Source: Rapana venosa (Eukaryota > Mollusca > Gastropoda > Neogastropoda > Muricidae). From it: a stretch of 64,000 nt of DNA. Made by a program: the position numbers and the translations under genes. Of this stretch, positions 13,801 to 57,770 are shown piece by piece. The notes beneath the pieces were generated by a model that saw nothing but the letters and a program-made list of their open reading frames with translations, was not told where the DNA came from and searched no databases. The stretch lies in the NCBI GenBank assembly GCA_028751875.1, contig CM054158.1:8948302-9012301 (forward strand). Reading direction: 5' to 3'. Each line of letters starts with the position of its first letter. Positions within the stretch are counted from its first letter, which is position 1.

Positions 13801-16800
13801 TAGAACTGTCTGTTTAGTATTGTCTGTTTAGTACTGTTAGTACTGTCGGTTTAGTACTGTTAGAACTGTTTAGTACTGTTAGAACTGTCGGTTTAGTACT
13901 GTTAGTACTGTCGGTTTAGTACTGTTAGAACTGTCTGTGGTTTAGCGCGGTTCTGTCTGTGGCTTAGCGCGGTTCTGTCTGTGGCTTAGCGCGGTTCTGT
14001 CTGTGGCTTAGCGCGGTTCTGTCTGTGGCTTAGCGCGGTTCTGTCTGTGGCTTAGCGCGGTTCTGTCTGTGGCTTAGCGCGGTTCTGTCTGTGGCTTAGC
14101 GGTTCTGTCTGTGGCTTAGCGTGGTTCTGTCTGTGGCTTAGCGTGGTTCTGTCTGTGGTTTAGCGCGGTTCTGTCTGTGGCTTAGCACGGTTCTGTCTGT
14201 GGCTTAGCGCGGTTCTGTCTGTGGCTTAGCGCGGTTCTGTCTGTGGCTTAGCGTGGTTCTGTCTGTGGCTTAGCGCGGTTCTGTCTGTGGCTTAGCGGTT
14301 CTGTCTGTGGCTTAGCGGTTCTGTCTGTGGCTTAGCACGGTTCTGTCTGTGGCTTAGCACGGTTCTGTCTGTGGCTTACTGTCTGTGGCTTAGCGCTGTT
14401 AGAACTAGGTTGTGTTTCAGTACTTTCTGTCTGATGTTTCAGTACTTTCTGTCTGATGTTTCAGTATAAGTAAAACACTATTTAACAGTGTTACTTAAAC
14501 ACTATTTAACAGTGTTACTGTTTGTGTTTTTTTCTTCTATTATGGGGGGGGGGGGGGGGGGGGGGTAATACTATTTTTTTTTATCTCAGTTATCTGCTCT
14601 TTTCTCTCGGTTCTATCAGTACAATGTTTTTTAAAATATATGTTACATCAGTAGTGTTGTGTTTCAATTTGTTATTATGATGTGTTTCAGCAGTGCTCTA
14701 GAAGTTATATCTGTTACAGCAGTACTGTTGTGTTTCAATATAATGTTATTATATGGTGCATTGTTTCAGCAGTGCTCTAGAAGTTATATCTGTTACATCA
14801 TTACTGTTGTGTTTCAACATGATGTTATTATGGTGCGTTGTTTCAGCACTGCTCTATATGTTATATCTGTTACATCAGTACTGTTGTTTCAACATAATGT
14901 TATTATGGTGCGTTGTTTCAGCACTGCTCTATATGTTATATCTGTTACATCATTACTGTTGTGTTTCAACATGATGTTATTATGGTGCGTTGTTTCAGCA
15001 CTGCTCTATATGTTATATCAGTTACATCAGTACTGTTGTGTTTCAACATAATGTTATTATGGTGCGTTGTTTCAGCACTGCTCTATATGTTATATCTGTT
15101 ACATCATTACTGTTGTGTTTCAACATGATGTTATTATGGTGCGTTGTTTCAGCACTGCTCTATGTGTTATATCTGTTACATCAGTACTGTTGTGTTTCAA
15201 CATGATGTTATTATGGTGCGTTGTTTCAGCACTGCTCTAGAAGTTATATCTGTTACATCAGTACTGTTGTGTTTCAACATGATGTTATTATGGTGCGTTG
15301 TTTCAGCACTGCTCTATATGTTTTGAGCCATGGGACAACTCAGGCAGACATCGACTGGCTGCCCTCAAGTGTGGACATCTCTTTGGACTGGGGTCGGTCT
15401 GTGTGTATGTGTGTGTGGTTTTTGTGTGTTTGTGTGCGCGTGTGTGTGTGTGTGCGCGCATGCATGTGTGTGTAGTTTTATATGAATGTGTTTGTGTGTG
15501 TGCGTGCATGCATGGGTGTGTGTGGGTATATGTGTGTGTGCGTGCGTGTATGTTTGTGTGTGTTTTTGTGTGGGTATGTGTGTGTGTGTGTGTGCGTGTG
15601 GTTCTTCAGAAAAGGCTTTAATGCATACAATGCAGGATGTTCTGCATGCGGTTGCGCACAGGAGCTGGGTTTATAGTCTCATCTGAAGGATTTTGGGGGG
15701 AGTGGAGTCGGCACTGATGTGAACTGTAGCTGGGAGATTGGGCTGAGGCTGGAACCCGGGCCACCAGATGACAAGCTCAGCACTGACCACCGGACGGGAC
15801 AGCCTGGTGGTTACAGTGATGTATTCGTGATCTGCTGACCTGGGTTCGAATCTCGTTCAACAAGAGGATTTTTCCTCTGGAGTTAACATCAGTGCTGACT
15901 CCTCTCTCCCCTAAAGTCTTTCGGACGAGTTTCTAAACCGAGGTCCCTTGTGTGAACATCTTGCGCACATGTTGAAACCCGTTCTGCTTTGCCGAAGAGT
16001 AGACCATTGTGTGCCGGTGGGGATGGATGACAAAATTGACAAAATGCACACACACGGGGACTGGATGAAAAAAAAGCACATGAATGCTTATTCCATTATC
16101 CTCGAAATTAAAGAATAAAATAAAACCACTAGACTGTTCTGCCCCCATGAACTTTAATGTGACCAAAATATACATGTATGTGCTGTCTTCAGAACTCTTT
16201 GTCTGTGAAGCTTCTGGTTTGATGATATAGGGACAGTTTGTGTTAACCTGTGAAGCTTCTGGTTTGATGATCAATCATATAGGGACAGTTTGTGTTAACC
16301 TGTGAAGCTTCTGGTTTGATGATCGATCATTTAGGGTCAGTTTGTGTTAACCTGTGAAGCTTCTGGTTTGATGATTGATCGTATAGGGACAGTTTGTGTT
16401 AACCTGTCCAGTGCCTCACTTCACAAGATAACTCGTCAGCAATGATGTGTACTCTGCACTGCCTTGTCTTTCGAGTATACTCATCATGGGGCAGTCCATA
16501 ATTTCCTCATTTTATATTTAGGCTGTGGATATTTTTTTTAAAAGGTGAAGGTCCCTACACTCTATTGGTGACCAGTAATCTCGCATTCATCCCAAGAAAC
16601 CCCCTTTTTAAAGCTGGGGGGGGGGGAGGGGGGGTTAAAATAATTTGTACCCGTTTGGGGGAGGGGGGGACCCTTGCAATGGACTCTTGCAAAAAGGATT
16701 TAGCTTCAAGCTTAATTCCCTGGCAGTGAAAGGGTTAATCTGAGATTTGTGTGTTGTTGACCGTGTACAGAGAAATGTTTTGAATGATGTATCAGTAAGT

Positions 16801-56351: not shown

Positions 56352-57770
56352 TGCACACACACACACAACAGACAGGTGTGATAGTCACACACAACAGACA
56401 GGTGTAATAGTCACACACAACAGACAGGTGTGATAGCCACACACAACAGACAGGTGTGATAGTCACACACAACAGACAGGTGTAATAGTCACACACAACA
56501 GACAGGTGTGATAGCCACACAACAGACAGGTGTGATAGCCACTGCACACACACAACAGACAGGTGTGATAGTCACACACAACAGACAGGTGTAATAGTCA
56601 CACACAACAGACAGGTGTGATAGCCACTGCACACACACAACAGACAGGTGTGATAGCCACTGCACACACACAACAGACAGGTGTGATAGTCACACACAAC
56701 AGACAGGTGTAATAGTCACACACAACAGACAGGTGTGATAGTCACTGCGCACACACAACAGACAGGTGTGATAGCCACTGCACACACACAACAGACAGGT
56801 GTGATAGCCACACACAACAGACAGGTGTGATAGTCACTGCACACACACAACAGACAGGTGTGATAGTCACTGCACACACACAACAGACAGGTGTGATAGT
56901 CACTGCACACACACAACAGACAGGTGTGATAGTCACTGCACACACACAACAGACAGGTGTGATAGTCACTGCACACACACAACAGACAGGTGTGATAGTC
57001 ACTGCACACACACAACAGACAGGTGTGATAGTCACACAACAGACAGGTGTGATAGTCACTGCACACACACAACAGACAGGTGTGATAGTCACTGCACACA
57101 CACACACACACAACAGACAGGTGTGATAGTCACTGCACACACACAACAGACAGGTGTGATAGTCACTGCACACACACACACAACAGACAGGTGTGATAGT
57201 CACTGCACACACACAACAGACAGGTGTGATCGTCACACACAACAGACAGGTGTGATAGTCACTGCACACACACAACAGACAGGTGTGATAGTCACTGCAC
57301 ACACACACACAACAGACAGGTGTGATAGTCACTGCACACACACAACAGACAGGTGTGATAGCCACACACAACAGACAGGTGTGATAGTCACTGCACACAC
57401 ACAACAGACAGGTGTGATAGTCACTGCACACACAACAGACAGGTGTGATAGTCACTGCACACACACAACAGACAGGTGTGATAGTCACACACAACAGACA
57501 GGTGTGATAGTCACACACAACAGACAGGTGTGATAGTCACTGCACACACACAACAGACAGGTGTGATAGTCACTGCACACACAACAGACAGGTGTGATAG
57601 TCACTGCACACACACAACAGACAGGTGTGATAGTCACTGCACACACACAACAGACAGGTGTGATAGTCACACACAACAGACAGGTGTGATAGTCACACAC
57701 AACAGACAGGTGTGATAGTCACACACAACAGACAGGTGTGATAGTCACTGCACACACAACAGACAGGAAG
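56352..57770 (-). repeat. Array carrying the HIPK last-exon splice acceptor
   Basis: About 45 units of 24-40 bases. On the - strand most read GTGTGCAGTGACTATCACACC; the true border is GTGTGCAG|TGACTATCGTCACC. A second unit class lacks CAG (TGTGTGTGACTATCAC) and so has lost the acceptor AG, and some units read TGGCTATC. Confidence 0.95.

Follow-up and report, generated by a model that had tools for sequence, protein, structure and literature searches.

Two genes of a gastropod mollusc, RFWD3 and HIPK2, carry minisatellite arrays whose tandem units span the boundary of the adjoining exon: this is the case at exons 3, 4, 5, 7 and 9 of RFWD3, at the donor of its exon 11 and at the last exon of HIPK2. 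The reading that we favor, with a probability of roughly three in four, is that these arrays are minisatellites of the mirage type, founded by tandem duplications over exon borders and held at the exon edge by selection. Evidence in support of it includes the near-copies of acceptors lying in their own introns, the match of array sequences to the start of the following exon at five exons, the crowding of arrays at acceptors and the stops or frameshifts that use of the copied RFWD3 acceptors would bring.

Genes in the Window and Their Exon Maps

The window, which is the whole stretch of 64,000 nucleotides that was analyzed, holds RFWD3 on the plus strand, with exons 2-13 splicing into a single open frame (12076..37367), and the C terminus of HIPK2 on the minus strand:

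RFWD3 exons 2-7, plus strand: 12076-12657, 15307-15392, 18102-18204, 19896-20075, 21827-21904, 25660-25761 (open frame, and tblastn for all but exon 6)
RFWD3 exons 8-13, plus strand: 27918-28081, 29428-29640, 31025-31119, 32926-33017, 35023-35214, 37248-37367 (open frame and tblastn)
Last HIPK2 exon (C terminus), minus strand: 56350-55948, first exon base 56350 (match to snail HIPK2)

The spliced RFWD3 product matches the RFWD3 protein of known structure 6cvz (E 7e-74), and the RFWD3 WD40 family of Pfam was found in three of the nine supplied open frames. Identity to snail proteins is 74% for Nucella lapillus, 73% for Babylonia areolata and 72% for Littorina saxatilis. A tblastn search with three snail RFWD3 proteins matched 11 of the 12 exons and, at 7572, a first coding exon. 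No independent match with these three proteins was obtained for exon 6, which is called because of its open frame, its GT/AG phases and the RFWD3 alignment. Exon 13 probably carries a 1-bp shift in the window, the spliced frame being open while the tail of the exon is shifted. The last HIPK2 exon shows 87% identity to Babylonia, 83% to Nucella, 82% to Littorina and 78% to Batillaria, all four of which are caenogastropods. Judged by these protein matches, the host would itself be a caenogastropod.

Arrays at the Exon Borders

The original prediction had placed ten arrays near exon ends, and all ten are present. They are given below together with the intron 2 sequences that resemble the exon 3 acceptor and with a neighbor of the exon 11 donor array:

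13367..14519, plus strand: intron 2 arrays (22-37 bp) and single motifs resembling the exon 3 acceptor
14636..15322, plus strand: exon 3 array, 77-bp unit, 9 copies, running 16 nt into RFWD3 exon 3
16860..18101, plus strand: exon 4 array, 31-44 bp unit, copies with the exon 4 acceptor and ~15 exon bases
19109..19895, plus strand: exon 5 array, ~86-bp unit, in which CAG followed by ATGTTGGACAC resembles the exon 5 start, CAG followed by ATGGTGGACAC
25478..25717, plus strand: exon 7 array, 103-bp unit, 2.4 copies, with 58 bases of exon 7 following its acceptor
28383..29427, plus strand: exon 9 array, 35-36 bp unit, with the exon 9 acceptor and 9 exact exon bases
33011..33524, plus strand: exon 11 donor array, 35/55-bp unit, beginning 7 nt upstream of the exon 11 end
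33701..34176, plus strand: 35-bp array, 13.6 copies, with a distant relationship (z 5.5 vs 100 shuffles) to the exon 11 donor array
34714..35028, plus strand: exon 12 array, 70-bp unit, exon 12 acceptor with few exon bases
36858..37246, plus strand: exon 13 upstream array, 35-bp unit, ending at the exon 13 acceptor
37366..37883, plus strand: stop-codon array, 40-bp unit, founded on the exon 13 coding end and the stop codon
56360..57767, minus strand: HIPK array, 26-33 bp unit, acceptor of the last HIPK2 exon and 8 exon bases

The units of the junction-linked arrays, 26-103 bp long, are of minisatellite size. Their sequences had been described as unrelated, which is nearly right: among the 91 pairs formed by 14 array units only three exceed z 4, i.e., a pair of arrays within intron 2, the exon 11 donor array with its neighbor and the exon 13 array with the HIPK array (z 4.3).

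Arrays containing the acceptor and first bases of their own exon had been claimed for exons 3, 4, 5, 7, 9 and 12, and the claim holds for the first five of these. The units before exon 3 reproduce its acceptor followed by as many as 16 bases of the exon, with 36/36 positions identical across the junction; the corresponding figures are 40/40 at exon 7 and 33/35 at exon 9. The exon stretch that recurs before exon 4 is 15 nt long with 13 matching, the true junction being a diverged terminal copy, and that before exon 5 is 11 nt long with 10 matching, a TG tract lying between the array and the true junction. Exon 12 is marginal, since three copies share just 6, 2 and 2 exact exon nt; the best alignment there is identical at 25/26 positions, including 6 exon nt. 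The array upstream of exon 13, said to end in the real acceptor, does abut it, but the match is on the intron side, stops at -3 and has no exon base in common. The exon 11 donor was found in the downstream array as predicted: its copies repeat ACACCAG followed by gt, i.e., 7 exon nt and then donors of gtaaac or gtga type, with 27/27 positions identical across the junction. The repetition of the HIPK acceptor on the opposite strand is likewise borne out, its 8 exact exon bases recurring in at least 12 copies. The array after exon 13 does repeat the region of the stop codon, but this region is the border between coding sequence and 3' UTR rather than a splice junction, and the array is not splice-linked; its existence shows that an array of this kind can arise without a splice site. 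A fragment resembling exon 6 (25449-25482) adjoins the exon 7 array and does not continue across the exon 6/7 join.

Junction Copies Compared with Controls

The resemblance between arrays and junctions was evaluated in three ways. Stretches of 20+20 nt across 16 borders were aligned with the neighboring array or intron and compared with 300 dinucleotide shuffles. At exons 4 and 5 the alignments are gapped or short, and the best of the 300 shuffles scores one point higher (P 0.007 each). No significant match emerged for the donors of exons 5, 3 and 8 (P 0.30, 0.09 and 0.66), for the acceptor of exon 10 (P 0.95) or for acceptors 2, 6, 8 and 11 (P 0.60, 0.73, 0.85 and 0.84); the three donors and the exon 10 acceptor, considered as additional junction arrays, were consequently dropped.

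The second comparison set the first 12 bases of each exon against the sequence following every AG in all arrays. The own pairs of exons 3, 4, 5, 7 and 9 score 12, 11, 10, 12 and 10 of 12, whereas the 213 other exon-array pairs score 9 or less, with four reaching 9. Exon 12 (6), exon 13 (4) and HIPK (8) stay within this cross-pair control. At the exon 11 donor the own pair reaches 7/8, a value that one other pair attains too, so that the control is weak there.

Third, near-copies of the 22 nt over each junction (5 edits or fewer) were counted in the intron to which the junction belongs and, for comparison, in the remaining introns, independently of the repeat finder. For the 12 RFWD3 acceptors there are 59 own near-copies versus 0.62 expected (exon 3: 12, exon 4: 17, exon 5: 3, exon 7: 1, exon 9: 25, exon 12: 1), and at six of the 12 there are none; for the 11 donors there are 7 versus 0.29 expected, every one of them at exon 11. 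With 6 edits the counts rise to 99 versus 6.86 for acceptors and to 15 versus 3.06 for donors. All these counts gauge the strength of the link and not the number of independent events, given that copies within one array share ancestry. The exon 6 acceptor was set aside as low complexity: its 10 copies at 6 edits come from a single array of GCAG type, and at 5 edits it has none.

The copies hold the intron end and the exon start in register, and the founding segment must therefore have straddled the border; the copy abutting the exon is the one that runs on into the full coding sequence. Could such arrays be a product of the assembly? One amphioxus mirage was, according to the available part of its description, aberrantly assembled in a draft genome, and the probable 1-bp shift in RFWD3 exon 13 might be counted on the same side. 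Yet the units differ in ordered patterns within arrays, and an assembly error, which alters copy number, would not be expected to create junction copies that have diverged, let alone beside several exons. We thus regard an artefact as extremely improbable.

Excess of Arrays at Acceptors

The window contains 43 merged minisatellite arrays covering 16,947 of its 64,000 bases, and in RFWD3 introns 2-12 arrays occupy 8,518 of 23,285 bases (36.6%), even if introns 7 and 10 have none in the merged intervals of the repeat finder. With so much of the introns in arrays, some of these might merely overlap exon edges by chance. In favor of this explanation are also the donors, which stay at chance, and the raw overlaps in a placement test in which 22 arrays were shuffled inside their introns: exons are overlapped by at least 4 bp in 4 cases versus 2.25 expected (P 0.17), a difference that is not significant because at exons 4, 5 and 9 the finder does not reach the terminal copies, which have diverged. 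Array ends within 75 bp of any border number 11 versus 5.03 expected (P 0.001). Once the arrays are extended by homology, 6 overlap acceptors versus 1.13 expected (P 1.5e-4), a count that leans to excess since the shuffled arrays were left unextended, and 1 overlaps a donor versus 1.12 expected, which is the level of chance. In the raw intervals, 8 of 11 introns have an array no more than 75 bp from their acceptor versus 2.5 expected (P 5e-5), contacts among which that of exon 5 is a TG-rich array while those of exons 10 and 13 share no exon base; for donors the figure is 3 of 11 versus 2.5 expected (P 0.48). The exon-prefix, 75-bp contact and near-copy tests need no homology extension and all agree with the excess. 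All P values are post hoc and come from a single locus picked for its pattern. Considering the acceptor overlaps and contacts, as well as the recurrence of the pattern in a second gene with the HIPK array, chance overlap is unlikely. The excess sits at the 3' ends of introns and is real in RFWD3.

This evidence also weighs against the mirage-type reading, for neutral placement predicts as many donors as acceptors, and we see one donor versus six acceptors. The bias might originate from a feature of the DNA, from weaker selection against duplications of acceptors or from a process tied to splicing. Along 40 nt, TG/GT steps number 15.0 on the acceptor side (12 acceptors, a value that includes array ends), 10.7 on the donor side (11 donors) and 6.5 in the background; TG-rich tracts, which could promote slippage, were considered as the source of the bias, but both intron ends are rich in TG and the comparison is not decisive.

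A process linked to splicing or transcription, acting via a nick, an R-loop or RNA-templated repair, could duplicate 3' splice sites and would account for an excess at acceptors and not at donors; the repeated relatives of one acceptor along intron 2 would suggest a lasting source of this sort. Against it stand the array on the stop codon, a place inside the last exon that has no splice site, and the exon-exon joins: none of the 11 joins (15+15 nt) has a plus-strand copy within 4 edits, the best plus-strand matches showing 5 to 8 edits and all lying at the exons' own ends, and the exon 6-like fragment does not cross its join with exon 7. The splicing-linked lesion, RNA-templated repair and buffering that had been proposed found no direct evidence, with no spliced copy on the plus strand for the 11 joins, and we deem a process of this kind quite unlikely. 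What stands of the idea that expansion starts from exon borders and is stopped at the exon is that the arrays are border-founded and limited by the exon edge; it does not extend to borders at large, donors being at chance in the placement tests, although the one donor array is real, and one array sitting on a stop codon.

Proposed Founding, Growth and Homogenization

Under the mirage-type reading, a short tandem duplication with breakpoints flanking an exon border would place in the intron a second version of the intron end together with the opening bases of the exon. The unit adjoining the exon would still provide the true splice site and an intact coding sequence, so that the change would be near-neutral. 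The array could then grow and homogenize within the intron as an ordinary minisatellite; growth into the exon would be barred, since the protein would change, and splicing would stay with the exon-proximal site, most likely because recognition needs the remaining exon and its donor.

Traces of such a history vary from array to array. Relatives of the exon 3 acceptor reach upstream through intron 2 to ~13390, the farther ones being more diverged; they amount to 14 matches at 6 edits or fewer versus 0.19 expected from other introns, although they sit in few arrays and are not independent. The decoys of the near half at exon 3 resemble the true junction more than those of the far half (0.97 vs 0.84), with small slopes at exon 5 (0.70/0.65) and exon 12 (0.68/0.64) and none at exons 4, 9 and HIPK. 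At exons 4 and 5 the internal copies are more alike among themselves than any resemblance that they bear to the true copy, as expected if internal units homogenize while the edge stays outside the process. No such separation of the true copy is seen at exon 3, and for exons 9, 12 and HIPK it is limited to the exon side, the intron side showing none.

Decoy Sites and the Presumed Choice of the True Acceptor

With a cut-off of at least 11/16 matches, we counted 91 decoy acceptors (exon 3: 9, exon 4: 21, exon 5: 5, exon 7: 1, exon 9: 25, exon 12: 3, exon 13: 0, HIPK: 27) and 11 decoy donors, those of exon 11, for an overall 102; the figure of more than 120 advanced in the original prediction needs a looser cut. 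The reading-frame test covered the 64 decoy acceptors of RFWD3: translation from the decoy onward through the exon meets a stop in 62 cases and shifts the frame in two, leaving no open frame. For the gene to work, these 64 decoys would have to be almost silent.

In functional terms, this situation poses a question: How would the spliceosome settle on the true site? Four of the nine decoys of exon 3 are identical to the true site across all 15 exon bases tested, and immediate context therefore cannot explain the choice there. The longest AG-free zone belongs to the true site at exons 5, 9 and HIPK and lies elsewhere at exons 3, 4, 7 and 12; AG-free distance was thus rejected as a general rule, failing in four arrays. 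Recognition of the exon via its body and its donor would be the likeliest way in which the true site is picked.

At HIPK the six units nearest the true acceptor all lack AG, versus 13 of the other 40, for which the chance calculated by hand is ~0.003 if units are independent, while in fact they follow a higher-order repeat. This long decoy-free zone is a hint of an effect of splicing on decoys close to the true site and could be taken in favor of decoys having been retained by selection, for instance to buffer or tune splicing. The zone itself, nevertheless, would reflect selection against decoys, in units that are not independent, and among the 64 RFWD3 decoy acceptors none leaves an open frame and function is not seen; retention by selection is very unlikely.

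Relation to Known Systems

No named system had been thought to match these arrays, whereas one had already been named: the mirages of amphioxus, described in the available part of the report as tandem duplications, similar to minisatellites, that involve exon-intron boundaries of Adh3, globins and troponin C (PMC3087553), with similar repeats in PGBD5 (PMC3087553, PMC3902484). Amphioxus mirages have units of ~10-160 bp, involve either type of boundary and are unstable in length, also somatically, and RT-PCR suggests regular splicing (PMC3087553, PMC3902484, in the portions available). The snail arrays share with them tandem units that lead from the end of the intron over the splice site into the exon, in the same range of ~10-160 bp (PMC3087553). 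In what is available of the amphioxus account the edge unit escapes homogenization; the snail arrays resemble this at exons 4 and 5, do so on the exon side alone at exons 9, 12 and HIPK, and do not at exon 3. Judged on their sequence, the snail arrays correspond in anatomy to mirages. They differ in the host, a mollusc instead of amphioxus, and in affecting six acceptors of one gene (one of them marginal), as well as in the over-representation of acceptors, which does not appear in the available part of the amphioxus account (PMC3087553). Regular splicing and somatic instability are evidence from amphioxus, whereas the snail arrays are known from one assembled sequence. Among the matches listed, mirages are mentioned by name for amphioxus only and for no mollusc.

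Other systems are more distant. Human genes in segmental duplications have internal tandem repeats at exon-intron boundaries with cryptic sites inside (De Grassi and Ciccarelli 2009, PMC2812944); as far as the accessible text goes, these repeats differ from one recent paralogue to another and have been linked to alternative transcripts and to new introns, whereas the snail copies lie in existing introns. In the Rogers model (as cited in the available part of PMC3087553) introns are gained via tandem duplication of AG/GT proto-splice sites, so that a splice signal is likewise copied by duplication, but its product is a new intron. The available part of a paper on Conus genes mentions microsatellites in introns and not junction arrays (PMC3862624), and those of papers on an earthworm and on C. 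elegans describe no junction copies (PMC12783039, PMC4039745).

Implications

A phenomenon known from amphioxus is now seen in another phylum, at high density and with a bias for acceptors. If general, it would offer a simple way for introns to grow out of their own splice sites. The 25 look-alike acceptors of exon 9 and the 27 of HIPK provide a direct test of how the spliceosome picks the one beside the exon, and for annotation, arrays of this kind invite false exon starts. It is tempting to go further, albeit tentatively and with confidence well below even: the 3' splice site of caenogastropods may be a lasting source of minisatellites, with acceptor duplications arising or surviving several-fold above those of donors, and much of the intron sequence may descend from the introns' own acceptors. 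If acceptors do seed introns in this manner, nature would have set up, on a large scale, a test of how decoys nearly identical to the true site come to be ignored.

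Minisatellites and Reading Frames in HIPK2

The HIPK2 gene lies on the minus strand, and the array in its last intron carries the acceptor of the last exon. All six array units closest to the true acceptor (56350-56540) are devoid of AG, and the AG-free zone preceding this acceptor extends for 189 nt. In the penultimate HIPK exon (58480-58530), relatives match in one frame before a G-rich stretch and in another after it, a two-frame match that possibly reflects a homopolymer error. Upstream of a HIPK exon, 14 copies of a 64-bp unit, 99% alike, form an array (62929-63827) that is probably very recent and lies at none of the junctions found in the window.

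Features along RFWD3

Two large arrays, with units of 21 and 27-28 bp, lie upstream of RFWD3 exon 1 (793-3143) and can be read piecewise, with frame changes, as long acidic open frames that are at most possibly coding. At the other end of the gene, the final ~18 codons of the last exon (37248-37392) are shifted by one base with respect to Nucella, Littorina, and Babylonia; this shift may be due to a sequencing error or a variant, or else give the protein a novel C-terminal end. The minisatellite 3' of the same exon consists of repeats of the end of the frame-shifted tail. Two SINE-like stretches of the tatata[g/c]cgct type, similar by eye (33525-33700 and 40741-40940), are both situated directly 3' of minisatellites, the former between two related arrays.

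Immediately 5' of the 103-bp repeat array carrying the exon 7 acceptor, a fragment (25449-25482) resembles the end of exon 6 (21860-21892), with an alignment score of 44 versus a maximum of 26 among 500 shuffles. A retroelement-like stretch separates exon 6 from this fragment. Intron 6 has an open frame (23377-23850), itself within retroelement-like sequence, that includes the 2A-like motif GDVETNPGP.
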